From assembly GCF_001886615.1 (NCBI RefSeq), contig NZ_CP018139.1, positions 930,001 through 994,000 of the forward strand: a stretch of DNA of 64,000 nt, in the 5' to 3' direction. Under the pieces are notes generated by a model. That model did no database searches. It was not told the DNA's origin and worked only from the letters and a program-made list of their open reading frames with translations. The position numbers and the translations under genes were made by a program. This stretch comes from Halomonas aestuarii (GTDB lineage Bacteria > Pseudomonadota > Gammaproteobacteria > Pseudomonadales > Halomonadaceae). Shown here piece after piece: positions 3,177-33,092 of this stretch (the first letter of the stretch is position 1; each line of letters begins with the position of its first letter).

Positions 3177-3914
3177 TTACAGCGGCTGCTTGGTCGGCCG
3201 GATGATCAGCTCGTTGACGTCGACGTCCGCCGGCTGCTCGATGGCGTAGACGATCGCCCGGGCGATGGCATCGGCGTCGATGGCCATCTCGTAGAGCTCG
3301 TTCACGCCCTTGGCGGTCTCCTCGTCGCTGATGGTGGAGGTGAGCTCGGTCGCCACCGCCCCCGGCGAGATGTTGGTGGAGCGGATCTCCTCGCCGCCTT
3401 CCTGGCGAATACCCTCACTGAGCGCCTTGACCGCGTACTTGGTGGCGCAGTAGACGGCGGCGGAGGGGAATACCACATGGCCGGCCACGGAGGAGAGGTT
3501 GATGATATGGCCGGCATGCTGCTCGCGCATGGTCGGCAGCACCGCGGCGATGCCGTAGAGCACGCCCTTGATGTTGACGTCGACCATCTGCTCCCACTCG
3601 TCGACCTTGAGCTGGTCGAGCGGCGACAGCGGCATCAGACCGGCGTTGTTGATCAGCACGTCAATGCGGCCATAGGCCTCCTTGGCGGACTGCGCCAGGG
3701 CCTCGACCTGGTCGCGCTCGGTCACGTCGGTGACGTGGTAGATCGCCTCGCCGCCCTGCTCGACGATGGCGTCACGCAGGGCCTGCAGACGGTCCTCGCG
3801 GCGTGCGCCGAGCACCAGTTTCGCCCCGGCCTTCGCCAGGCGGTGGGCGGTGGCTTCGCCGAGGCCGCTGCTGGCCCCGGTAATGATCACGACCTTGCCG
3901 TTGATCTCGGACAT
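3177..3914 (-). CDS. Classical short-chain dehydrogenase/reductase (SDR)
   Basis: A 245-residue NAD(P)-dependent oxidoreductase of unknown substrate. The cofactor motif TGASSGLG lies at residues 12-19, NNAG at 89-92, and the catalytic set is Ser141/142, Tyr155 and Lys159 (NLSSVAG...YCATKY). The family resembles YdfG/YMR226C-type serine or 3-hydroxy acid dehydrogenases, but substrate cannot be read from the sequence. It is the first gene of a likely two-gene unit with yghU. The palindrome TAGACCAGTCTA at 4015-4026, about 100 bases before the start codon, matches one next to the TetR gene upstream, so the pair is probably repressed by that regulator. Confidence 0.9.
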
Positions 3915-21396: not shown

Positions 21397-22026
21397 TCAG
21401 CTCGACCCCGGCGCGGGGTGGCGGGTGAACAGCGCCACCTGGGTCGGCTGGCCGAGGTGGTCATCCATCTCGCCGATCCCCGAGAAGCGCACCCGGTAGC
21501 CGTTGCGCCGGCCGACCCCCTGCCCCCAGTCGCGGAAGCGCGCCCGGTCCCACTCGAACTTGTGGTCGGGATCCCGGAACTCGCCGCGCGCCAGGCCGTA
21601 GAGGGGGTTGTACTCGGCGTTGGGGGTGGTCATCACCAGCAGCTGCGGCCGCAGCCCGGCGAAGACCGCGCGTTCCACCCGGGAGAGCGCCTCGGGGGGC
21701 ACATGCTCGATGGTCTCCACCATGGCCGCGGCATCGAAGCCCGCCAGCGCCGGGTGCGCATCGGCGTAGGAGCCACAGATCAGCTCGAGGCGCCCCGCCC
21801 GCGCGGCGGGCAGGTGCTCCAGTCTCAGCTTGGCCTGGGCGAGCAGCTCGCCGGAAAGCTCCAGGCCCACCACCCGTTCGAACTGCCCATCCCGCAGCAG
21901 GTACTGCAGCAGTCCCCCGGAGCCACAGCCGAGGTCGAGGACCCGCCGCGCCCCGCTGCGCCGGATCAGCGAGGCCGCACGCTGCAGTCGCGCCTGGTGG
22001 AGGTCGGGGGCTTCGAGGTCGGTCAT
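21397..22026 (-). CDS. Hen1-type 3'-terminal RNA ribose 2'-O-methyltransferase domain protein
   Basis: A 209-residue SAM-dependent methyltransferase. SAM-binding DLGCGSGG is at residues 31-38. The diagnostic Hen1 metal site is present: E104, E107 and H108 in ETIEHV and H155 in DPDHKFEW, together with VMTTPNAEYN (132-140). Bacterial Hen1 methylates the 2'-OH of a 3'-terminal RNA nucleotide, normally as the second half of a longer protein paired with the repair enzyme Pnkp. Here only the methyltransferase domain exists and no Pnkp gene is in the window. ATG 22026 is chosen because upstream in-frame residues look non-coding and overlap a terminator; no clear ribosome site is seen. A generic small-molecule or protein methyltransferase is less likely given the E-x-x-E-H...H set. 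Confidence 0.8.
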   Translation of the reverse strand: MTDLEAPDLHQARLQRAASLIRRSGARRVLDLGCGSGGLLQYLLRDGQFERVVGLELSGELLAQAKLRLEHLPAARAGRLELICGSYADAHPALAGFDAAAMVETIEHVPPEALSRVERAVFAGLRPQLLVMTTPNAEYNPLYGLARGEFRDPDHKFEWDRARFRDWGQGVGRRNGYRVRFSGIGEMDDHLGQPTQVALFTRHPAPGSS

Positions 22027-22097
22027 CGACGAGGCATCTGCGCAGGGAGTGGGCGACCGATGATGACGCAAAGCGGACGGGGCTTGTAGCACCGACC

Positions 22098-22124
22098 AAA
22101 AAAAGGCGCGACTCGCGTCGCGCC
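22098..22124 (-). terminator. Intrinsic terminator downstream of exaC
   Basis: On the minus strand, stem GGCGCGAC/GTCGCGCC (22117-22124 with 22105-22112, 4-base loop) is followed by seven T residues (A run at 22098-22104). A second 8-bp hairpin CCGGCTCG/CGAGCCGG lies between it and the exaC stop (22163-22185). Confidence 0.85.
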
Positions 22125-22199
22125 CAACTTGCCTGCTCGGTGCTCGCCGAGGCGTCTTAGGGCCGGCTCGGTCATCACGAGCCGGTCGGAACAAGCCGG

Positions 22200-23720
22200 T
22201 CAGAAGAAGCCCAGCGGGTTGATGTCGTAGCTCACCAGCAGGTTCTTGGTCTGCTGGTAATGCTCAAGGGCCACCTTGTGGGTCTCGCGACCGACGCCGG
22301 ACTTCTTGTAGCCGCCGAAGGCGGCATGGGCCGGGTACTGGTGGTAGCAGTTGGTCCAGACGCGCCCGGCCTGGATGCCGCGGCCCATGCGGAAGGCGAC
22401 GTTCATGTCGCGGCTCCAGACGCCGGCGCCGAGGCCGAACTCGGTGTCATTGGCGATGGCCAGGGCCTCCTCCTCGTCCTTGAAGGTGGTCACCGCCACC
22501 ACCGGACCGAAGATCTCCTCCTGGAAGACGCGCATGCTGTTGTTGCCCTTGAGCAGGGTCGGCTGGATGTAGAAGCCGTTGTTGATGGCCGGGTCCAGGG
22601 TCTCACGCTGGCCGCCGGTCAGGAACTCGGCGCCCTCCTCGCGGGCGATGTCCATGTAGGACATGATCTTGTCGAACTGCTCCTGGGAGGCCTGGGCCCC
22701 GACCTGGACGTCGGTATCCAGCGGGTTGCCGCGCTTGATCGACAGGGTGCGCTCCATGACCCGGGCCATGAAGTCCTCGTACATGCTCTCCTGGATCAGG
22801 GCGCGGGACGGGCAGGTGCACACCTCGCCCTGGTTGAAGAAGGCCAGCACCAGGCCTTCCACGGCCTTGTCGATGAAGGCCGGCTCGGCGTTCATGATGT
22901 CGGCGAAGTATATGTTCGGCGACTTGCCGCCCAGTTCCACGGTGGAGGGGATGATGTTGTCGGCGGCGCACTTGAGGATATGCGCGCCCACCGGGGTGGA
23001 GCCGGTGAAGGCGATCTTGGCGATGCGCTTGCTGGTGGCCAGCGCCTGGCCGGCCTCGGCGCCGTAGCCGTTGACGACGTTGAGCACGCCGGGCGGCAGC
23101 AGGTCCCCTACCAGCTCCATCAGCTTGAGGATGGAGGCCGGGGTCTGCTCGGCGGGCTTGAGCACGATGCAGTTGCCCGCCGCCAGCGCCGGCGCCAGCT
23201 TCCAGACGGCCATCAGCAGCGGGAAGTTCCAGGGGATGATCTGCCCCACCACCCCCAGCGGCTCGTGGAAGTGGTAGGCCACGGTGTTGGCGTCGATGTC
23301 CGCGGCGGTGCCTTCCTGGGCGCGGATGCAGCCGGCGAAGTAGCGGAAGTGGTCGATGGCCAGCGGCAGGTCGGCGTTCAGGGTCTCGCGCACCGCCTTG
23401 CCGTTGTCCCAGGTATCGGCCACGGCGAGCATCTCGAGGTTCTGCTCCATGCGGTCGGCGATCTTGAGCAGGAGGTTGGAGCGCTCTGCGGCGGAGGTCT
23501 TTCCCCAGGCCGGGGCCGCCTCATGGGCGGCGTCCAGGGCGAGGTCGATGTCCTCGGCGGTGGAGCGGGGGATCTCGCAGAACACCTCGCCGTTGACCGG
23601 GCTGACGTTGTCGAAGTACTGGCCCTTCACCGGGGGGACGAACTTGCCGCCGATGTAGTTGCCGTAGCGCGGCTCGAAGCTGACGACCGAACCGGCCTGT
23701 CCAGGGTTGGAATAGATCAT
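22200..23720 (-). CDS. exaC: NAD-dependent acetaldehyde dehydrogenase, ExaC/AldB type
   Basis: Oxidises acetaldehyde and related aldehydes to acids, as the second step of ethanol oxidation. The 506-residue protein starts [25 protein letters not shown] and ends [13 protein letters not shown], closely following P. aeruginosa ExaC as I remember it. The NAD-binding loop is FTGSTPVG, the general base lies in VELGGKSPN and the nucleophile in [11 protein letters not shown], around residues 265-305. GGAGTCACGCC precedes the ATG. A LuxR-type response regulator is divergent from it, as in ethanol-oxidation loci where AgmR/ExaE-type regulators control such genes, so that regulator is a fair candidate controller. 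Confidence 0.93.
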
Positions 23721-23856
23721 GGCGTGACTCCTGAATGTTGTCGTTGTGGAGATGCACCCCCCAGTCTTGGTGAGTCAGGCCTTCTGCGACATACTCCGGT
23801 GGCAGGAGACGGCCTCCTCCTTCGGTAGGAGGCGAGACGATGCCAGGAGGAATGCC

Positions 23857-24537
23857 ATGCACACCCTGATGGTCGCCGACGACCATCCGCTGTTCCGCGA
23901 GGCCATCGCGACGGTGATCGAGGCGGGCCTCCCCGACAGCCGCCTGCTGGAGGCGGAGAGCCTGGCCGAGGCCCTGGGCCACGCCGCGGACTGCGAGGCG
24001 CTCGACCTGGTGCTGCTCGACCTCGGCCTGCCCGATGCGAGCGGGCTGGAGGGACTCCGCGCCCTGCGCGAGGCCCATCCCGCCCTGCCGGTGGCGATAC
24101 TCTCCGCGGACCAGGAGCGACGCACCATCCTCGAGGCCATCGACCTCGGCGCGGTGGGCTACATCCCCAAGTCGACGCCCCGCCGGGACCTGCTCACGGC
24201 GCTGGCCCGGCTTTTGGAGGGGCAGCTCTACCTGCCCCCGGACATCATGCGTCGTCCGCCGGCCCCGGCTCACCGGCCCCCCTCCGCCGACGAGGCCGAC
24301 CGGGAGCGCCTGTCGGAGCTGACCGACAAGCAGCTCGAGGTACTGATCCGCCTGACCCGCGGCGCCTCCAACAAGGTGATCGCCCGGGAGCTCGGCATCG
24401 CCGAGACCACGGTGAAGACCCATGTCTCGGCAATCCTGCACAAGCTCGGCGTACCGGGACGCGTCCAGGCGATCCTCGCCGCCGGCGCGGTCGACCTCGA
24501 TGCCCTGCTGGCCGACCGGCACGCCGCCTCACGCTGA
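23857..24537 (+). CDS. LuxR/NarL-family response regulator
   Basis: A 226-residue two-component regulator. Receiver: acidic pair VADDHPLFRE, phosphoacceptor Asp55 in LVLLDLGLPDASGLEG and Lys in GYIPKSTP. The LuxR-type helix-turn-helix (about residues 155-215) reads LTDKQLEVLIRLTRGASNKVIARELGIAETTVKTHVS. CAGGAGGAA precedes ATG 23857; an earlier in-frame ATG at 23746 would add 37 unlikely residues. It is divergent from exaC and convergent with the NahK-type kinase, whose last 9 bases overlap it. It resembles ExaE/AgmR-type regulators of alcohol oxidation. The overlapping hybrid kinase is a possible partner, though it carries its own receiver. Confidence 0.88.
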   Translation: MHTLMVADDHPLFREAIATVIEAGLPDSRLLEAESLAEALGHAADCEALDLVLLDLGLPDASGLEGLRALREAHPALPVAILSADQERRTILEAIDLGAVGYIPKSTPRRDLLTALARLLEGQLYLPPDIMRRPPAPAHRPPSADEADRERLSELTDKQLEVLIRLTRGASNKVIARELGIAETTVKTHVSAILHKLGVPGRVQAILAAGAVDLDALLADRHAASR

Positions 24538-25929
24538 GCCGCCCTCCTGCAGGGCGATGAGCTGCATGCGCAGCCGCAGCGGCTTGAGGGGCTTGAGCAG
24601 GCAGCCGTAGCCCTGCTGGCGTGTCAGGCTCTTGATCGCCGCATCGTGATTGGCGGTGATCACCACCACCGCCAGTCCGGGCTGGCGCTCGCGAAGCCGC
24701 GCCGCCACCGCCAGGCCGTCGGGGGCCTCGTCGCCCAGGTGGTAGTCGACCAGCAGCACATCCGCGGTCTCGCCGTCCGCCTCGGCTTCCAGGGCGCCCG
24801 GGGATGTCGCGGTCCGCACCCGGCAGCCCCACCCCGCGAGCAGCGCCGCCATGCCCTCGCAGATCCCGGGATCGTTGTCGACGACCCAGACCCGCATGCC
24901 CGCCAGGGCGTCTCCCTGCCAGGACGGCGCCGCGGCCGGGGAAGAGCGCGGCGACGCCGGAGGCCGACCGTAGGGCACCCGCACCGAGAAGAGCGAGCCG
25001 CGACCCGGCACGGAGGCCAGCCGCAGGGGATGCTCGAGCATGCCCGCGATGCGATCGACGATGGCCAGTCCCAGCCCCAGGCCGCGATCCTCGGCGTCGC
25101 GGCTGACGCCCAGGCGCTGGAACTCCTGGAAGATCGCCTCGCGCTGCGCCTCGGGAATGCCGGGCCCGCTGTCGCCCACCAGGATCTCGAGCCCGTCGGG
25201 GTGACGCCGGCAGCCCAGCAGGATGCTGCCACGCTCGGTGTAGCGGATGGCGTTGGTCAGGAAGTTGCGCACCACCCGGGCGAGCAGCGCCAGGTCCGAG
25301 GCGACCACCGCCCCACTTCTGACGTAGTGGAAGTCGAGCCCCCGCGCCGCGGCCATCTGGCGGTACTCCTCGGCCAGCACGTCGAGCAGCCGGGCGACGG
25401 GGAACGGGGCGATGTCCGGCGCCAGCACGCCGGCATCGAGCCGCGAGATGTCCACCAGGGTGCCGAGCAGCGCCTCCACGTCCTTGAGGGAACGCCCGAC
25501 GTGGCCCACCAGCCGGCTCGAGGGCTCGGGAAGGTCGTGATCCTCCAGGGCGCTGGTGAAGAGTCGGGCGGCATTCAGCGGCTGCATCAGGTCGTGGCTC
25601 ACCGCGGCCAGGAAGCGGGTCTTGGAGAGGTTGGCCGCCTCGGCCTCGGCCTTGGCGACATGCAGCTCGGCCAGGGTCTGCTGCAGGGTCTCGGTGCGCT
25701 CGCGCACCTGTTCGGCGAGCAGCACGGCATGCTCGAAGGCGGCATAGGGGGCCCCGCCCGCCACGCCCGCGGACTCCACCCGCTCCATCAGCGCCGTGGT
25801 GATCCGCCGCAGGCGAGCGTTCTCCTCCAGCAGCTCCCGCTCGCGGGCCGAGGCGTCCTCGGGGATCGCCCGAGACCGGGCGAGATCCAGCGGCGACCCC
25901 GGTGACGATCCGGTCGATGTGCGCGCCAT
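24529..25929 (-). CDS. NahK-type (NosP-associated) hybrid histidine kinase with C-terminal receiver
   Basis: A soluble 466-residue kinase. A coiled coil at about 27-55 leads to the phosphoacceptor motif FLAAVSHDLMQPLNAARLF with His112 (the H-D-L-x-Q-P-L-N-A-A-R-L form is characteristic of NahK/ErcS' kinases), N-box VRNFLTNAIRYT (N222, N226), G-boxes DSGPGIPE and GLGLGLAI, and a receiver at about 345-465 with Asp395 (LLVDYHLGD). No PAS or membrane segment is present, so input must come from a partner; in P. aeruginosa and others that partner is the NO-sensing FIST protein NosP. Here nosP lies 5 kb upstream and a remnant of a nosP 3' end overlaps this start. No clear ribosome site is seen, consistent with a start evolved inside another gene. 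Confidence 0.85.
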   Translation of the reverse strand: MARTSTGSSPGSPLDLARSRAIPEDASARERELLEENARLRRITTALMERVESAGVAGGAPYAAFEHAVLLAEQVRERTETLQQTLAELHVAKAEAEAANLSKTRFLAAVSHDLMQPLNAARLFTSALEDHDLPEPSSRLVGHVGRSLKDVEALLGTLVDISRLDAGVLAPDIAPFPVARLLDVLAEEYRQMAAARGLDFHYVRSGAVVASDLALLARVVRNFLTNAIRYTERGSILLGCRRHPDGLEILVGDSGPGIPEAQREAIFQEFQRLGVSRDAEDRGLGLGLAIVDRIAGMLEHPLRLASVPGRGSLFSVRVPYGRPPASPRSSPAAAPSWQGDALAGMRVWVVDNDPGICEGMAALLAGWGCRVRTATSPGALEAEADGETADVLLVDYHLGDEAPDGLAVAARLRERQPGLAVVVITANHDAAIKSLTRQQGYGCLLKPLKPLRLRMQLIALQEGGSA

Positions 25930-25985
25930 GAGGCTGCTCCCAGGGGTTGACGCCGATCTCCCGCCGGCGGGCCGCCGCGGGAGGC
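25866..25985 (-). pseudogene. Remnant of the 3' end of a FIST/nosP gene overlapping the kinase start
   Basis: On the minus strand, out of frame with the kinase, about 35 codons read EIGVNPWEQPHGAHID, then IVTGVAAGSRP. This matches the C-terminus of the intact FIST protein (VIGFNTYGEQHHGTHINQ, then TFTGVAIGSRP, near 31172-31280). The DNA match covers roughly 100 bases (25874-25972 against 31192-31293), about 80 % identical in the better half, with one 3-base gap. It records a former arrangement in which nosP ran directly into the kinase gene. Confidence 0.75.
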
Positions 25986-26010
25986 GAACCGTCGACGGGG
26001 TGGCGCAGGC

Positions 26011-27120
26011 TCAGTACATGCGGTGGCGGAACAGCCAGCCGGCTAAGGCCAGCGTCGCCACGCCGATGACCGCCATGGGCCAGAACTGGTCGATCAGCAG
26101 GTGGAACGGCGTGCCCTCGAGAAAGACCCCCCGCAGCACCACCATAAAGTAGCGCATCGGATTGATCAGGGTAAGGTCCTGCACCAGCGGCGGCATGTTG
26201 GCGATCGGCGTGGCGAACCCCGACAGGATCACCGCCGGCACCAGGAACAGGAAGGACCCCAGCACGGCCTGCTGCAGCGTCGCCGACAGGGCCGAGATCA
26301 TCAGCCCCACGCCGACCGCGGAGAGCAGGAACAGGCCGAGACCGACGTAGAGAGTGGCCAGGTGCCCCCTCAGCGGGATGTCGAACCCCCACACGGCCAC
26401 GGCGATGATCGCCGTGGCCTCCAGCAGGCCGATGACAAGCCCCGGCATGGCCTTGCCGACCAGGATCTCCATGGGGTGCATCGGGGTGACCAGCAGCTGG
26501 TCGAAGGTGCCCTGCTCGCGCTCGCGGGCCACGGACATGGAGGTGACCACCATCACCACCACCAGCACCAGCAGCCCGACGATGCCCGGCACGATGAACC
26601 AGCGACTGACCAGGTTCGGGTTGAACCAGGCCCGGGTGACCAGGACCGACGGGGGCGTTGGTCCGCCGTGCGCCTCCAGCCAGTCCTCGCCGAACCCGCC
26701 GACGATGCTGCGCGCGTAGCCAAGCGCAATGGCGGCGGTGTTGGAGTTCCGTCCGTCGAGGATCAGCTGCACCCCGGCCCCGTCGGCCGAGCGCAGGTCA
26801 TGGGAGAAGCGCGGCCCGATCGACAGCACCATCAGCGCCTCGCGGTCGTCGATCAGCCGGGCGATCTCCTCCTGGCGGTGGACCCGGGCGACCAGCTCGA
26901 AATGCTCGGAGCCGGTGAAGCGCGCCACCAGGGCCCGCGCCTCCGGACCGCCATCGCGGTCGTAGACCGCCATTGGCACGTGGTTGAGGTCGAAGGTGGC
27001 GGCGAAGCTGAACACGATCAGCTGGATGATCGGCGGTACGACGATCACCACGCGCGCCCGCGGGTCGTGCAGCAGGGCGAGGAATTCCTTGATCATCAGG
27101 GCATGGATGCGCTGCCACAT
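26011..27120 (-). CDS. ABC-2-type efflux permease, YhhJ-like (second permease)
   Basis: Inner-membrane permease of 369 residues. One N-terminal membrane helix (VVIVVPPIIQLIVFSFAATFDLN) is followed by a large extracytoplasmic domain (about 45-165) and five more membrane helices with the ABC-2 motif MSVAREREQGTFDQLLVTPM near residues 194-213. It begins 3 bases after the first permease and is the last gene of the HlyD-ATPase-permease-permease operon. Proteins of this YbhR/YhhJ type export drugs, antimicrobial peptides or other hydrophobic compounds. Substrate unknown. Confidence 0.87.
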   Translation of the reverse strand: MWQRIHALMIKEFLALLHDPRARVVIVVPPIIQLIVFSFAATFDLNHVPMAVYDRDGGPEARALVARFTGSEHFELVARVHRQEEIARLIDDREALMVLSIGPRFSHDLRSADGAGVQLILDGRNSNTAAIALGYARSIVGGFGEDWLEAHGGPTPPSVLVTRAWFNPNLVSRWFIVPGIVGLLVLVVVMVVTSMSVAREREQGTFDQLLVTPMHPMEILVGKAMPGLVIGLLEATAIIAVAVWGFDIPLRGHLATLYVGLGLFLLSAVGVGLMISALSATLQQAVLGSFLFLVPAVILSGFATPIANMPPLVQDLTLINPMRYFMVVLRGVFLEGTPFHLLIDQFWPMAVIGVATLALAGWLFRHRMY

Positions 27121-27123
27121 GGG

Positions 27124-28284
27124 TCACTCCAGCCGCTTGTGCAGGCGTCGGCGGCTGACGCCGATGAAGAAGACCGCCATCGCTGCCAGCGCCAGGGCGT
27201 TGGGAAGGATGATCGACCAGACGTTGCCGGCGAGGAAGAGCGTGTGCAGCAGCACGACGAAATAGCGGGCGGCGATCACGTGGGTCAGCACCTGCAGCCA
27301 GCCGGGCATGCTGCCGATGTCGAAGATGAAACCTGAGAGGATGAAGGCCGGCAGGAAGGTGGTGATGATCGCGAGGATGCCGGCGACGAACTGGTTTCGC
27401 GCCACGATCGAGATCAGCAGGCCCATGCCCAGGGCCGCCAGCAGGAACAGCGCGGAGACGCCGACCAGGACCAGCAGGCTGCCGCGCAACGGCACCTCGA
27501 ACAGGAATAGCGCCATGCCCACCGACAGCGCCATGCCGCCCATGCCGAGCACGAAGTAGGGAATCAGCTTGCCGAGCAGGATCTCGCGCAGGGTGATGGG
27601 GGTGACCATCAGCGCCTCCAGCGTGCCGCGCTCCCACTCCCGAGCCATCACCAGCGCGGTGAGCAGCGCCCCGATCAGGGTCATGATCACCGCGATCAGG
27701 CCGGGCACCAGGTAGTCGCGGCTGCGCAGCTCGGGGTTGAACCAGACGCGCCCCTCGAGCACCACCGGCACGGGCAGCGTCAGCCCGCGGTCCCGGGCCA
27801 GGCTGGCCTGCCACTCCTGCCAGGTGGCCGCGACGTAGCCCTGGATCAGCCGGGCGTGGTTGGCGTCCACGCCGTTGACGATCAGCTGGACCGGGGCCTG
27901 GGTGCCGTCGAGCAGCCGCGTGCCGAAATCCGCCTGCAGGTGAAGGATGGCGTCGACCTCCCCGGCGCGCAGCGCCGCCTCGGCCGAGGGCATGTCGGGC
28001 AGCACCACGGGGCTGAAGTAGGTGGAATGGCGGAAGGCCCCCACCAGGCTCTCGCACTGGGGGCAGGGAGCGTCGGCCACGAAGGCGACCGGCACGTGCT
28101 TCGCATCCAGGGAGACCCCATAGCCGAACAGCAGCAGCAGCACCACCGGCATCACGAAGGCGATGGCGATGCTCGAGGGGTCGCGCAGGATCTGCAGGAA
28201 CTCCTTGCGCAGCAGGCCGCGCAGCCGCTGTGCGCTGCCACCGCGGGGGGCATCCTGTCGGGGCCGTGCCGGATCAGGTCGCAT
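27124..28284 (-). CDS. ABC-2-type efflux permease, YbhS/YhhJ-like (first permease)
   Basis: Inner-membrane permease of 386 residues with the same layout as its neighbour: first helix IAIAFVMPVVLLLLFGYGVSLD, external domain with a C-x-x-C pair (CPQC, near residue 74), then five helices including VMAREWERGTLEALMVTPIT. The start overlaps the ATPase stop by 11 bases. Two unequal permeases probably pair as a heterodimer under the tandem ATPase. No key motif is missing. Confidence 0.88.
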   Translation of the reverse strand: MRPDPARPRQDAPRGGSAQRLRGLLRKEFLQILRDPSSIAIAFVMPVVLLLLFGYGVSLDAKHVPVAFVADAPCPQCESLVGAFRHSTYFSPVVLPDMPSAEAALRAGEVDAILHLQADFGTRLLDGTQAPVQLIVNGVDANHARLIQGYVAATWQEWQASLARDRGLTLPVPVVLEGRVWFNPELRSRDYLVPGLIAVIMTLIGALLTALVMAREWERGTLEALMVTPITLREILLGKLIPYFVLGMGGMALSVGMALFLFEVPLRGSLLVLVGVSALFLLAALGMGLLISIVARNQFVAGILAIITTFLPAFILSGFIFDIGSMPGWLQVLTHVIAARYFVVLLHTLFLAGNVWSIILPNALALAAMAVFFIGVSRRRLHKRLE

Positions 28285-30091
28285 CGCGGGCGGTCCCCTC
28301 GGTCTGCTCGATCAGCGCCACGAAGGCGTCCTCCATGGACGGGTGGGGGCGATCCTCCCGGCGCGCGTCCCGCCGGATGGCCTGCGGCGAGCCCTCGGTG
28401 AGGATGCTGCCCCGCGACATGATCACCAGCCGGTCGCAATACTCGGCCTCGTCCATGAAATGCGTGGTGACCATGATGGTCACGCCAGCGTCGGCCAGCG
28501 CGCTGATGCGGTTCCAGAAGGCGCGTCGCTCCAGCGGGTCGACGCCGGAGGTAGGCTCGTCGAGAAACAGGATGTCCGGCTCGTGCATCAGGGCGCAGGC
28601 CATCGCCAGGCGCTGCTTGTAGCCCAGCGGCAGGTTGTCCGCCTCCTCGTCGGCAAGGGGGCCCAGGTCGAACTCGTCGACCGCCCAGTCCAGGCGCTCG
28701 CGCAGGCGGGCCCCGCGCAGGCCGTAGCTGCGGGCGAAGAAGCGCAGGTTCTGCTGCACGGTCAGCACGCCGTAGAGCGCAAAGGTCTGGGACATGTACC
28801 CGAGCCGGGCCCGGGCCCGTGCGGCGGCCTGGCGCAGGTTGACCCCGGCGACCGACAGCCGGCCCTCGCTGGCGGGCAGGAGCCCGCTGAGCATGCGAAA
28901 GGTGGTCGACTTGCCGGCGCCATTGGCCCCCAGTAGCCCGAAGATCTCGCCGCGGCGGACCGCAAAGGCGATACCCCGGACCGCCACGAAGTCGCCGAAG
29001 CGCCGGGTAAGGTCGCTGACCTCGATCATCGGGGTGTCGTCGCCGGGCGGAGACTGCCCGTTCCCATCGGACGCCGCCGGGCGGCAGGAACCGCCCGCGT
29101 GGGACGCCTCGGGCTTGCCCCTTCCCGATGCCCGCAGCCGGGCGACGAAGGCGTCCTCGAAGCGGTGGTCGACCGGCTGCCAGTCGACGGCCGGCAGAGT
29201 CGGCGGCTGCCCGGACGCCTCGAGGAGGGTCCGCACGCCGTCGCCGTCGATCACCGCATCGAGGACACCAGGCATGGCCGCGATGTCGACCTGCAGGTGA
29301 CGCCGCAGGCGCTGCTGGCTCTGCGCGTACCAGACCCGTCCGCTCAGGTCGGCCCCGAAGCGCTCCGGCGCCTGCTGCCCGAGCACCCGGCCCTCATGCA
29401 TCAGCACCACCTCGGCGCAGCGTTCGGCCTCGTCGAGGTAGGCCGTCGAGAGCAGCACGCTCATGCCCTCCTCCTCGACCAGCCGGTAGACGATGCGCCA
29501 CAGCTCACGGCGCGAGATCGGGTCGACTCCGACGGTCGGCTCGTCAAGCAGCAGCAAGCGGGGCGGACGGACCAGGGTGCACGCCAGGCCGAGCTTCTGC
29601 TTCATGCCGCCGGAGAGGCGACCGGCGAGCCGCTCCGTGAAGGGCTCGAGACCGGTCATCGCGAGGAGCTCACGGTAGCGCCCCGGTCGTTCGGCGGCGG
29701 CGAGCCCCTGAAGGTCGGCGTACAGGTCGAGGTTCTCCTGCACGGAGAGGTCCTCGTAGAGGCCGAAGCGCTGGGGCATGTAGCCGATGCTGGCCTGCAC
29801 ACTGAGCGGGTCGGCCACGACGTCGATGTCGAGCACCGAGAGGCTGCCCCGGTCCGGCACCAGCAGGCCGGCGATCAGGCGCATCAGGGTGGTCTTGCCG
29901 GCACCGTCGGGGCCGATCAGGCCGGTGACCTGCCCCGTGCGGAGGCGAAATGCGGCGCCGTCGACGGCGCGGATCTCGCGGGGGCCGCTGCGGAAGGTCT
30001 TGCAGAGACCCTCGACGACCAGGGCGTCGCGCGCTGCGGAGGCACGCGACGCTGCGGGAGGTGGCGCGTCCCCGGCATGGCTCACGGGCAC
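28274..30091 (-). CDS. Tandem ABC ATPase of a drug-efflux system (RbbA N-terminal/YbhF-like)
   Basis: A 605-residue protein with two nucleotide-binding domains in one chain. Domain 1: Walker A GPDGAGKTT, signature LSGGMKQKLGLAC, Walker B LLLLDEPTVGVD. Domain 2: Walker A GANGAGKST, a degenerate signature LPLGYKQRLAMAC and FLDEPTSGVD. A roughly 60-residue linker with PEASHAGGSCRP separates them. It lacks the membrane domain of full RbbA. It overlaps the HlyD-type gene by 10 bases upstream and the first permease downstream, so the complete exporter is encoded in one tight unit. Confidence 0.9.
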   Translation of the reverse strand: MPVSHAGDAPPPAASRASAARDALVVEGLCKTFRSGPREIRAVDGAAFRLRTGQVTGLIGPDGAGKTTLMRLIAGLLVPDRGSLSVLDIDVVADPLSVQASIGYMPQRFGLYEDLSVQENLDLYADLQGLAAAERPGRYRELLAMTGLEPFTERLAGRLSGGMKQKLGLACTLVRPPRLLLLDEPTVGVDPISRRELWRIVYRLVEEEGMSVLLSTAYLDEAERCAEVVLMHEGRVLGQQAPERFGADLSGRVWYAQSQQRLRRHLQVDIAAMPGVLDAVIDGDGVRTLLEASGQPPTLPAVDWQPVDHRFEDAFVARLRASGRGKPEASHAGGSCRPAASDGNGQSPPGDDTPMIEVSDLTRRFGDFVAVRGIAFAVRRGEIFGLLGANGAGKSTTFRMLSGLLPASEGRLSVAGVNLRQAAARARARLGYMSQTFALYGVLTVQQNLRFFARSYGLRGARLRERLDWAVDEFDLGPLADEEADNLPLGYKQRLAMACALMHEPDILFLDEPTSGVDPLERRAFWNRISALADAGVTIMVTTHFMDEAEYCDRLVIMSRGSILTEGSPQAIRRDARREDRPHPSMEDAFVALIEQTEGTARDAT

Positions 30092-31119
30092 GGATCGGCG
30101 CCCTGGTCGACCGGCTCCGCCGCCAGCGGCACATGCACGGTCACCGGCATGCCGAGGCGCAGCCGGCCCTGCGGATTGCAGGCGTGGACGTGCACCTGGT
30201 AGACCAGTTCGGAGCGCACCCGCGTGGTCTCCACCGACTTCGGCGTGAATTCCGCCGTCGGGGAGATGTAGCCGATCCAGCCATCGACCGGCTGGTCGGG
30301 GAAGCTGTCGCTGACGATGGTGGCCGGCAGGCCGGGGCGGACGTGGCCGAGGTCCTGGCCGTCGACGTAGACCCGCGCCCAGATCGGTTCGACGGGCGCG
30401 AGGCTGAAGACCGGCTGGCCGGGCGACGCTATGTCGCCCGGCTCGAGGATGCGGTTGCGGACGATGCCGTCGGCGGGGGCCTCGAGTTCGGTATCGGCGA
30501 CGGCGATCTCGGCCAGTTGCAGACGCGACTGGGCGGCGGCGACCCCGGCGCGCGCCTCGGCGATGTCCTCCTGGCGCGGCCCGGCGATGGCCAGCGCCAG
30601 GGCCTGCTGGTCGGCGTGCAGCCGCCCCAGGGCGGCGTCGCGGGTGGCCCGTGCCTGGTCGGCGCTCTGACGGGAGGCCATGTCCTGACGGGCCAGTCGC
30701 GCGGTGCGCTGATAGGTCAGGCGGGCGGCGGTGAGGTCGGCCTCGTCGGCCTCCACCACCGCGCGCAGGCGCTCGATCTCCTCGGGACGCGAGCCCGCGA
30801 GCAGCCGATCCAGCGCCGCCTGGCGGGCGTCGAGCTCGGCGCGGCCGGCGGCGAGGTTGGCCTGGAAGCGGCGGTCGTCCAGGGTGGCGAGCAGCTCGCC
30901 CTGCTCGACCCGGTCGCCGGCCTGCACCAGGATGCGCTCGATGCGCGCGCTCTGGTCGAAGGCGAGCTGGACCTGGCGCAGGTCGATGTTGCCGAAGAGG
31001 GTCAGTCGGTCGGATGGCGCCTGTTCGCGACTGGCCTGCCAGGCCACCGCCAGGCCGATGCCGACCACGAGGGCCAGTGCGGCCAGGATGAGAAGGCGCC
31101 GCTTGCCCGGCTTCGTCAT
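30082..31119 (-). CDS. HlyD-family membrane-fusion (periplasmic adaptor) protein
   Basis: A 345-residue adaptor anchored by one N-terminal membrane helix (LLILAALALVVGIGLAVAW). The biotinyl-lipoyl half-motifs flank a long helical hairpin: IERILVQAGDRVEQGELLATLDD before it and ELEAPADGIVRNRILEPGDIASPG after it, with Ala/Arg/Leu-rich coiled coil between (about 85-200). It links the inner-membrane exporter to an outer-membrane channel not encoded nearby. It is the first gene of the four-gene efflux operon, 52 bases downstream of nosP; GGAGAGACCTGATCC precedes the ATG. YhiI/YbhG is the closest E. coli arrangement. Confidence 0.88.
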   Translation of the reverse strand: MTKPGKRRLLILAALALVVGIGLAVAWQASREQAPSDRLTLFGNIDLRQVQLAFDQSARIERILVQAGDRVEQGELLATLDDRRFQANLAAGRAELDARQAALDRLLAGSRPEEIERLRAVVEADEADLTAARLTYQRTARLARQDMASRQSADQARATRDAALGRLHADQQALALAIAGPRQEDIAEARAGVAAAQSRLQLAEIAVADTELEAPADGIVRNRILEPGDIASPGQPVFSLAPVEPIWARVYVDGQDLGHVRPGLPATIVSDSFPDQPVDGWIGYISPTAEFTPKSVETTRVRSELVYQVHVHACNPQGRLRLGMPVTVHVPLAAEPVDQGADPCP

Positions 31120-31171
31120 GGATCAGGTCTCTCCTGCAATCCGTGCGGGGTGTCGAGGCCGGGGCATGGCG

Positions 31172-32365
31172 TCATCGGGCCGGGCCCACGGTCGGGCGAG
31201 AGCCGATGGCGACCCCGGTGAAGGTCTGGTTGATGTGCGTGCCATGATGCTGCTCCCCGTAGGTATTGAAACCGATCACCCGCGAGCGGGCCAGCAGGCG
31301 AGAGGCCGAGGGCACCTGTCCCAGCGTCTCCAGCTCCAGCCGACGCAGGAAGCAGTCACAGCCGATGATCAGGGCGGGCTCGCCGAGACGCTCGTTGAGC
31401 CCGGCGAGGACCGTCGCCAGGTCCTCCATCATGGGCGCCGGCTGCATGGCGGTCAGCACGATGCCGTTCTCCACCGCACAGTAGAAGCTCAGGCTGCCGT
31501 CGTCGTTGACGCGCTGGATGGACCGCACGAAGTGGGCCTCGCCCAGCCGTACCGCCAGTGGGTGACGGGCGAAGACCTCGGGGGCCAGGGCCTCCACCGG
31601 CAGGCCCACCAGCCGGGCATACTCCTCTGCCGCCGGCAGGGCGTTGAGCTCCAGGACCCGACGGCGCTCACGGTCGGCCCGGGTGACCACGAGCTTCTCG
31701 TCGCGCGGGCGCAGATGATGGGTGGTGAAGACCTCGAAGGGCAGCCGGGTATTGACCATGACCACCACCGCGGCCTGTCCATGGAAACGGCCTCCGGCAT
31801 TCACGTGGGTATGGGCCAGGCGGTTGTCGTCGCCGGCGGAGCCTCCGAAGCTGGGGATGCGTCCCAGGGCGGCATCCAGGGTCGCCAGCACCTGTTCCTC
31901 GCAGCTCGACAGGCCATCGAGCAGGGTCAGGGCGAAGCTGTGCTCCCCGACCGGGGCCAGGGCCCGGTCGCGACAGTCGTCGAGCAGGCCGTCGACGATC
32001 CGCTGGGCGCGGATCAGGTCGAAGCCGCCCAGGTCCTCGACCAGGGCACAGGAGACGGCGAAGTGGCGCCGATCGAGGCCGATGGCGACGATGCAGCCTC
32101 GCCCGTAGCCCTCGGGGGTGATCTCGCCGGCGGTGGTGCAGCCCGCCACCGGGACGCCCTCGAAGGCCCCGTTCAGGGCATCGGAGAGCGCCGCCAGAGG
32201 ATACTCGGCACTGCAGAAGAACAGCACGAAGCCGAGCTCGGGGTGGCAAAGGGCCTCGGCCAGCTCCCGGGCCGCGGCCGCGGGCTCGCGCTGACGGCTC
32301 ACGGCCGTGCGCAGCGGCGCATCCGTGTCGGCCATGGCGTGAGCGGCGGGGGAGGAATCGAGCAT
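31172..32365 (-). CDS. nosP: FIST-domain protein, NosP-type nitric-oxide sensor
   Basis: A 397-residue cytoplasmic sensor with FIST_N (about 40-230: FVLFFCSAEY, VAGCTTAGEITPEGYGRG) and FIST_C (about 240-385: LIIGCDCFLRRLELE, FNTYGEQHHGTHINQTFTG). In P. aeruginosa and other bacteria NosP is a His-ligated haem protein that binds NO and inhibits the kinase encoded next to it, affecting biofilm and c-di-GMP signalling. His residues are plentiful in FIST_C (THHLRP, HHGTH) but I cannot name the haem ligand. Instead of the kinase, an efflux operon follows directly; the NahK-like kinase is 5 kb further on. Out of frame, its 3' end still encodes a ghost of the kinase N-terminus (MARTSTRPSPGSP, from 31245). 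Start 32365 is weakly supported; 32335 is an alternative. Confidence 0.85.
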   Translation of the reverse strand: MLDSSPAAHAMADTDAPLRTAVSRQREPAAAARELAEALCHPELGFVLFFCSAEYPLAALSDALNGAFEGVPVAGCTTAGEITPEGYGRGCIVAIGLDRRHFAVSCALVEDLGGFDLIRAQRIVDGLLDDCRDRALAPVGEHSFALTLLDGLSSCEEQVLATLDAALGRIPSFGGSAGDDNRLAHTHVNAGGRFHGQAAVVVMVNTRLPFEVFTTHHLRPRDEKLVVTRADRERRRVLELNALPAAEEYARLVGLPVEALAPEVFARHPLAVRLGEAHFVRSIQRVNDDGSLSFYCAVENGIVLTAMQPAPMMEDLATVLAGLNERLGEPALIIGCDCFLRRLELETLGQVPSASRLLARSRVIGFNTYGEQHHGTHINQTFTGVAIGSRPTVGPAR

Positions 32366-32591
32366 GTCGGCCTACTGTCGCGTTTCCCGGGAGTGTATGC
32401 CCCGGGACGGTAGGCGACAACGCCGGCCCTGGCGCCGGGACAAACCTGACCGAAGGGCGGTCATGCTGACTGGTACTTTCTGCTGATCCGGGAACGAAAT
32501 TGACCGGCATCAAAGGTGGCCATGAACTGATGCGGCTACCTTATTCAGACGGTGCCCGGAAGAGGCCCGGATGATAACCAAGGAGATGCCC

Positions 32592-33092
32592 ATGCCTGCC
32601 TGCCTTCCCGGAGGGAATTCCCGCCCGGGCCCCGCGGATGAGCCGCTGTCTCTCGCCCATGACCACGAGTCTCGCGAGATGGAGCGCTACCGCGGCCTGG
32701 CCCTCAGCTTCCTTCCCACCCGCCCCCACGTCAGCCGCCTGATGGCCGCGCTCGGCATCGAGTGCGAGCAACGCCTCGGTGCCCTGGAGAGCCTCGCCGA
32801 GCAGCTTCAGCTGCGCCACTGCCTGCCGACCCTGTCCACACGGCGCCGCGCCCTCGCCGATGAGCGCCGCCTCCACCTGTTCATCACCGACGACGCCATG
32901 GCCTGCGAGACCCTGGGCTACGCCCTCGCCTTCGCCCAGCATTCGAGACAGTTCAGCGAGCTGATGGCCCGCTACTGCCACCTGCCGACCCTGGACGCCG
33001 TGCTGGCTCAGTTCGTGGCCAGCAAGCGCAACGAGTGCCGCCTCCTCGAGGAGATGCGGGACCGGACCTATCGGGCCGCGGCCCTGATCTGA
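32592..33092 (+). CDS. Small helical protein of unknown function, possibly ferritin-like
   Basis: A 166-residue soluble, mostly helical protein that I do not recognise. ATG 32592 is chosen because AGGAG lies 6 bases upstream; in-frame ATGs at 32571 and 32586 fit worse. Residues about 25-75 (ESREMERYRGLALSFLP, MAALGIECEQRLGALESLAEQL) have E-x3-Y and E-C-E-x-R patterns like helices of ferritin/rubrerythrin-type proteins, but the usual E-x-x-H pairs are absent. The C-terminal half (LPTLDAVLAQFVASKRNECRLLEEM) is also helical. It is divergent from nosP and convergent with the hybrid kinase gene. A TGACCG/CGGTCA inverted repeat at 32447-32463 lies in its upstream region. Confidence 0.6.
   Translation: MPACLPGGNSRPGPADEPLSLAHDHESREMERYRGLALSFLPTRPHVSRLMAALGIECEQRLGALESLAEQLQLRHCLPTLSTRRRALADERRLHLFITDDAMACETLGYALAFAQHSRQFSELMARYCHLPTLDAVLAQFVASKRNECRLLEEMRDRTYRAAALI

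Follow-up and report, generated by a model that had tools for sequence, protein, structure and literature searches.

Two copies of a former nosP–nahK overlap flank inserted genes in Halomonas aestuarii and in two other lineages

The sensor gene nosP and the histidine kinase gene nahK of Halomonas aestuarii are separated by a four-gene ABC exporter, and the exporter lies between two diverged copies of a stretch that nosP and nahK once shared. The DNA considered here, termed the window, is a stretch of 64 000 nucleotides (nt), G000:C1:930001-994000, from a genome of 3.54 Mb. By NosP and NahK sequences its closest relatives are Halomonas. The order on the minus strand is nosP, hlyD, a two-domain ATPase gene, two permease genes and nahK, followed by a convergent LuxR-type regulator gene and exaC. 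The features at the junction, in window positions, are:

31172–32365, minus strand: nosP, intact, encoding FIST N and FIST C domains (Pfam PF08495 and PF10442; NCBIfam NF041558)
31160–31306, minus strand: overlap copy 1 (nosP side), nosP frame kept, with a ghost nahK N-terminus out of frame from 31245 (DNA alignment, frame test)
30082–31119, minus strand: cargo gene 1, HlyD/YbhG-like periplasmic adaptor (domain scan; NF002939 below cut-off)
28274–30091, minus strand: cargo gene 2, ABC ATPase with two nucleotide-binding domains (PF00005, two stretches)
27124–28284, minus strand: cargo gene 3, ABC-2 permease (PF12698)
26011–27120, minus strand: cargo gene 4, ABC-2 permease (PF12698)
25844–25985, minus strand: overlap copy 2 (kinase side), a decayed nosP 3′ remnant that holds the nahK start codon (alignment, profile, repeat search)
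24529–25929, minus strand: nahK-type hybrid histidine kinase of 466 amino acids with HisKA, HATPase_c and receiver domains (domain scan; NF041832)

NosP passes its family model NF041558 (564.3 bits, cut-off 450), and the kinase passes the NahK/ErcS C-terminal family NF041832 (499 bits, cut-off 400). The kinase falls below the model of NahK proper, NF041831 (482.5 bits, cut-off 1500), of which it covers only positions 479–850 of 854. The cargo has the gene order HlyD adaptor, ATPase with two nucleotide-binding domains and two ABC-2 permeases, and is presumably an ABC-2 exporter of the YbhG-F-S-R type. Its HlyD does not reach the YbhG-like adaptor model NF002939 (318.8 bits, cut-off 393).

At the DNA sequence level, 25844–25985 and 31160–31306 are two copies, about 77% identical, of the nosP 3′ end/nahK 5′ end. 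They flank the exporter (26011–31119), with all genes on the same strand, and copy 1 is contained in the 3′ end of the intact nosP. Their best local alignment has a score of 69, with 110 of 142 aligned pairs identical (a count derived from the score and two gaps of 2 and 3 nt). The best background score is 26 in 574 comparisons, made with 287 other stretches of the window on both strands, and chance similarity is thus ruled out. The longest direct repeat listed by a repeat search is this same pair (98 nt at 78%). In addition, the remnant is recovered in a genome-wide search with a NosP C-terminus profile from which it had been left out (G000:C1:955877-955972, E 3.8e-4). The repeat continues past the nosP stop codon (31172) to about 31160, and at the other end it begins 56, perhaps 70, nt upstream of the nahK ATG; copy 2 possibly extends to about 25999 (GTCGACG). 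Copy 2 also holds, as judged by eye, the Shine–Dalgarno-like stretch of nahK. An earlier note on this DNA had placed the kinase ATG at 25929 inside an out-of-frame FIST remnant, IGVNPWEQPHGAHIDRIVTGVAAG, and had read a ghost kinase N-terminus out of frame from 31245, MARTSTRPSPGSPSALARPWARPDDA. Both are present in the sequence, and the two segments it proposed to align are true copies, although the repeat is wider than those segments. The position of the exporter between duplicated copies of the overlap is borne out by the alignment.

The ancestral arrangement is found in relatives. A search with nosP gave 569 loci, and each of the best 80 related loci has nahK after nosP in the same orientation, which agrees with the supposition that this kinase pairs with FIST proteins; the sample was drawn by nosP and hence says little about such kinases elsewhere. 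Other genes lie between the two in four loci, and the exporter in none. In 72 of the 80 the open kinase frame reaches upstream as far as a possible start within nosP, with a median overlap of 62 nt. These starts were called mechanically, 42 at a CATGG box and 30 elsewhere. The remaining eight include the four interrupted loci. In the relatives nearest the window, the nahK start has the sequence MACTSTRPSPGSPLDL, or one close to it, within nosP HGMHINQTFTGVAIGS. Therefore the pair overlapped before the lineage of the window opened it.

The four interrupted loci represent two further openings, with other cargo. A DUF3422 gene (PF11902) is present between nosP and nahK in Halomonas korlensis (L039) and H. 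jincaotanensis (L040), and an SDR gene plus a LysR gene in Salinicola tamaricis (L051) and S. endophyticus (L062). All four display the doubled overlap. With 156 background comparisons for each, the scores are 100 in L039 (129/158 identical; background at most 17), 83 in L040 (105/127; at most 16), 88 in L051 (103/118; at most 19) and 86 in L062 (102/118; at most 16). A local screen detects a second copy in five of 81 loci, and none of the 81 has a doubled overlap without cargo. The NosP C-terminus profile was also run over 275 genomes of the family, where it has matches in at least 182. Twenty-seven genomes have two or more matches; 19 of these, together with one single-match genome, were searched again, and eight were set aside because each shows a second FIST gene. 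A partial second copy 1.4–5.2 kb from nosP is found in six genomes, and these are the three opened clades: the H. aestuarii genome (G000), G179 (L039), G039 (L040), G137 (L051), G116 (L062) and G101, which carries the same LysR at that position (98% identical). Remnants too weak for the E-value limit would escape this screen. Thus, the proposal that nosP and nahK formerly overlapped and were opened with both copies kept, first made for the window, is backed by relatives and by two additional openings with different cargo. The flanks of interrupted pairs in relatives were a suggested point of refutation, and they do carry the repeat.

A source of the cargo in the near neighbourhood was considered and rejected. 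In the relatives' loci, up to about 19 kb in length, DUF3422 has no match outside L039 and L040. The LysR gene has distant matches only (29–42% in L043, L062, L068 and L103), as does the SDR gene (54%, window 3192–3896).

A phylogenetic tree of NosP and NahK together, built by a quick method, places the window in a set of nine rows (Shimodaira–Hasegawa-like approximate likelihood ratio test, SH-aLRT, 98) with eight uninterrupted loci; L039 and L040 are outside this set. The Salinicola loci are far from the window, beside the uninterrupted locus of Modicisalibacter coralii (L047). In the tree of NahK alone, the sets of four and nine rows around the window are starred. The smallest number of changes between the uninterrupted and interrupted states on the joint tree is three, and three separate openings would thus appear to be needed.

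If the pair overlapped and was then doubled, each copy would be free of one of two coding functions. The substitutions in a 48-nt segment were compared in the three clades, with uninterrupted relatives as the ancestral state and with the changes of two members of one clade merged. The ancestral sequence was taken from one relative (L047) for the Salinicola pair and from 12 loci for the others. In the nosP frame, the nosP-side copies have one nonsynonymous and seven synonymous changes, and the kinase-side copies 23 and four (Fisher p 0.0003). In the kinase frame the nosP-side copies have eight nonsynonymous and no synonymous changes, and the kinase-side copies 15 and 12 (Fisher p 0.03). Each copy has thus decayed, after opening, in the frame that it no longer serves. 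This would be the pattern expected of two working genes, each of which keeps its own half. The GGAG-like stretch before the nahK start is still seen by eye in the kinase-side copies, and nahK is probably still expressed from the kept start.

Codon 3 of the kinase frame provides an example of the release. It shares bases with a NosP Met codon and is TGC in 65 of 70 uninterrupted loci (six of 76 were dropped for lack of a recognisable core, and the triplet was counted whether or not the kinase starts there). None of the five kinase-side copies has TGC: the window has CGC and the other four GGC. The Cys3 of NahK, tied to the NosP codon, is gone in all three lineages. The nosP-side copy of the window also has CGC, which changes the NosP Met to Thr. 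This T-to-C change is common to both window copies and is found in none of the 70 uninterrupted loci. It may predate the duplication or reflect conversion between the repeats.

The origin of the cargo differs between the openings. The exporter HlyD is found in three of 90 genomes of the genus at E 1e-40: that of the window itself and homologues 50% and 43% identical. A database search at the same threshold, in which the 7998 candidates sharing the most words were scored, gave at least 5007 proteins, of which 120 were listed. Among these listed matches the closest after the protein itself are 88, 82, 80 and 75% identical, the last from an organism named Guyparkeria. The same four-gene order is present in L154–L156. 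No nosP or nahK match of at least 70 bits was detected near other exporters in L113–L156 (44 stretches, of which 41 are only about 3–4 kb long). Because it is absent from most congeners, the exporter was probably acquired horizontally, and ready-made. A plasmid source was rejected, as the HlyD matches in 716 plasmid records are all below 60% identity.

The exporter begins 52 nt after nosP, its genes overlap by 10 and 11 nt or are separated by 3 nt, and it ends 81 nt before nahK. This spacing is compatible with a predicted single transcript of six genes, and the exporter may thus be co-transcribed with nosP. A sigma-70-type scan gave no site anywhere in 23500–32900 and so is silent on co-transcription; promoter and terminator scans of the locus were no better than shuffles.

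DUF3422 has matches in 17 of 22 Halomonas genomes searched, and in 15 it is elsewhere, setting aside H. korlensis (G179) and H. jincaotanensis (G039). All seven genomes that have both genes on one contig (G000, G052, G145, G153, G191, G197 and G230) have DUF3422 141–247 kb upstream of nosP and in the same orientation, and its neighbourhood is partly common to G145, G000 and G199. The sole DUF3422 match in G179 and in G039 is the one between nosP and nahK. The gene at the junction thus appears to be a relocated native gene. By comparison with four other genomes, three alignments put the start of the moved piece about 80–95 nt ahead of the ATG, and the fourth puts it at the ATG itself. The piece extends to the stop codon or as much as about 21 nt past it, where flank similarity is weak. 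Nothing else of the old neighbourhood is found beside the moved piece. The old home in G039 is absent from C23:1-160000 and hence is on another contig.

The H. korlensis locus has larger debris. After the ghost nahK start, between nosP and DUF3422, there is a second ghost piece that corresponds to nahK codons 85–110. Its score is 47.7, and the best of 300 shuffles (of single letters, not dinucleotides, as in all debris comparisons) is 21.5; its final few bases are perhaps part of the DUF3422 flank. The preservation of these codons means that the copied stretch comprised at least about 107 nahK codons and went beyond the overlap. The debris meets the DUF3422 flank at CCTGGCCGCCG, a word present in the G199 flank and not in those of G000 or G145, which may be the short homology where the join was made. 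L039 would be the least worn case, and its reading may extend to the other openings.

A segmental duplication followed by asymmetric loss, with the overlap copies left as a scar, is judged on these sequence comparisons to be probably, though by no means securely, the best explanation. Starting from an overlapping nosP–nahK pair, a stretch across the junction would have been duplicated. The first copy would then have held nosP and a useless nahK start, the second a useless nosP end and nahK. Cargo would have come between the copies: the exporter in the window, the relocated DUF3422 gene in H. korlensis and H. jincaotanensis, and the SDR and LysR genes in Salinicola. Redundant halves would have been deleted until only the nosP 3′ end remained on one side and, on the other, the start of nahK with its ribosome-binding site, and each copy, freed of its second frame, would have drifted in that frame. 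This route may have been taken in all three openings.

The same repeats might have arisen in one step, if repair synthesis or template switching departed from the nosP end, copied or joined the cargo and returned about 150 nt upstream, and if selection kept only such insertions, as others break nosP or nahK. The repeats are short (118–158 nt) and exceed the overlap and the nahK ribosome-binding site together by little; longer debris was not detected in the window, in L040 or in Salinicola. On the other hand, nahK codons 85–110 on the nosP side in H. korlensis exceed what a one-step insertion needs, and an extra step would be required to remove the original DUF3422 copy. On balance such an insertion is considered unlikely, if still deserving of some weight. 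Import with an anchor, where the exporter arrived already joined to an overlap–nahK segment from a Halomonas-like donor and recombined into the resident nahK, would fit an exporter foreign to the genus. However, the window NahK, alone and jointly with NosP, groups with Halomonas loci that have no exporter, the T-to-C change at codon 3 in both copies suggests a common source, and the opening would merely be shifted to an unseen donor. Import is thus improbable. Three different cargos at one junction might also suggest a hot spot for a transposon or site-specific element, the repeat being its target duplication. Target duplications of transposons are far shorter than 100 nt, and the repeats here exceed that length. 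No transposase or integrase is found among the cargo genes scanned (four exporter genes, one DUF3422, one SDR and one LysR), and an inverted repeat pairing the cargo ends, sought in the window only, was not detected. This last explanation is thus highly improbable.

Several observations weigh against duplication and loss, or against three separate events. A duplication of about 120–160 nt in a single step would look identical in the window and in Salinicola. There is no significant debris in L040, the sister of L039 (15.8; shuffles up to 23.0), and no nahK debris past the repeat in the window, L051 or L062, where scores are within those of shuffles; longer nosP debris in the window is likewise not above shuffles. 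In H. korlensis the former site of DUF3422 was not seen. At site 34 of the frame test the ancestral base is uncertain, and when the test is repeated without this polymorphic site the p value is 0.06 for the kinase frame (0.0007 for the nosP frame). The window falls in no well-supported set in the tree of NosP alone, and therefore the separation from L039 and L040 rests on the NahK and the joint trees. Since the repeats are direct, loss of cargo by recombination could restore the pair, and fewer duplications with reversions are possible. Furthermore, the window and L039/L040 nearly agree in their left edge in nosP, an agreement not required of separate events: the remnant begins at about 11595 in L039, 11581 in L040 and 25990–25999 in the window, at nearly the same codon of nosP. 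A hotspot, a needed sequence or coincidence may account for such edges in two openings separated on the tree.

In addition, no intermediate with two full nosP–nahK pairs was recognised in the genomes screened, which is weak evidence, as such a state would be short-lived. The second FIST genes in these genomes are diverged. In G175, two nosP-like genes with 74% and 62% identity to the nosP of the window are separated by about 9 kb, and these are not a fresh tandem copy because the order is nosP–nahK...nahK–nosP (L056). At this Halomonas alkalisoli locus (L056 9001–19224, G175:C42), the second, diverged nahK–nosP is about 6 kb after the first pair and in opposite order; in the part seen, the second nahK is 44% and the second nosP 52% identical, the latter with 62% over its full length.

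A model of duplication with subsequent asymmetric loss has been published for bacterial gene order; the present cases show a dual-coding overlap as the scar around inserted genes. The SNAP model (Brandis and Hughes, PMC7055797; for an operon cluster, PMC8046335) likewise has duplication first, then complementary loss and a new gene order. PMC8046335 proposes duplication–loss as one route for gene insertions into the operon cluster and states that for its own cases the exact mechanism could not be established. In the portions of these papers drawn on here, the scale is that of whole genes, without overlap debris, whereas in the present loci the overlap is the scar. Tandem duplication–random loss, as outlined for animal mitochondria, also changes gene order by duplication and loss. 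The present cases differ in that they concern a bacterial chromosome, with single genes or an operon as cargo and no intermediate seen. Overlapping-gene separation in Salmonella (PMC3843671) also includes counts of pairs that became separated, but the main text of that paper lacks the stem 'duplicat' and gives no mechanism by a doubled overlap, unlike the one proposed here. No description of a doubled overlap around inserted genes was found in the open-licence literature searched.

The entry of genes into operons is mostly inferred from gene orders before and after. Here, three cases at one junction carry scars, and one of them, DUF3422, has a known donor site. The doubled shared stretch in three lineages would thus be a direct trace of the rewiring of bacterial gene order, and the two copies show base by base what the overlapping frame had forbidden. 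Any set of genomes can be searched for the signature, in which the downstream gene is immediately preceded by an incomplete, out-of-frame copy of the 3′ end of the upstream gene, and this would make the duplication–loss model countable. Perhaps overlapping pairs cannot be opened by plain insertion, so that duplication of the junction is an obligatory gateway. The doubled overlap would then be a general, searchable fossil of duplication–loss across bacterial operons, a natural experiment in release from a dual code, and a direct repeat for clean excision of cargo, i.e. a reversible cassette site. This generalisation is tentative and, taken as a whole, rather doubtful.

In Pseudomonas, the same adjacent pair (PA1975–PA1976; PP_2663–PP_2664) is located near a LuxR-type regulator of alcohol oxidation; there NosP modulates NahK, NahK phosphorylates HptB, and the signal is passed on to RsmA (PMC12997753). 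By comparison, the kinase in the window is shorter, matching only the C-terminal part of the NahK model, and the pair is split. The neighbours of the window locus are:

23746–24537, plus strand: LuxR-type response regulator, convergent neighbour (coordinates of the longest frame; translation may in fact begin at ATG 23854)
22200–23720, minus strand: exaC, acetaldehyde dehydrogenase (NF050026, 966.3 bits, cut-off 900)

Homologues of the LuxR-type regulator are found in 78 of the 80 related loci, and those of exaC in 75. Adjoining exaC, 21397–22194 on the minus strand encodes a methyltransferase that resembles bacterial Hen1 over the C-terminal half of the latter (211.5 bits, cut-off 340).

Kinase genes vary in other ways among the loci. 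Long gaps in the Marinobacterium loci L106, L107 and L110 were considered as insertions and rejected; the kinase frame after nosP is instead 889–917 codons long, compared with 466 amino acids in the window. In L051 (12079–15916), L088 and L096, nahK and/or exaC match in pieces, which may represent sequencing errors or real breaks, and an upstream kinase likewise matches in several pieces in L088 and L096. The H. aestuarii genome also has a second NahK-like kinase in a long open frame (G000:C1:2408929-2410065), with 49% identity over residues 83–458.

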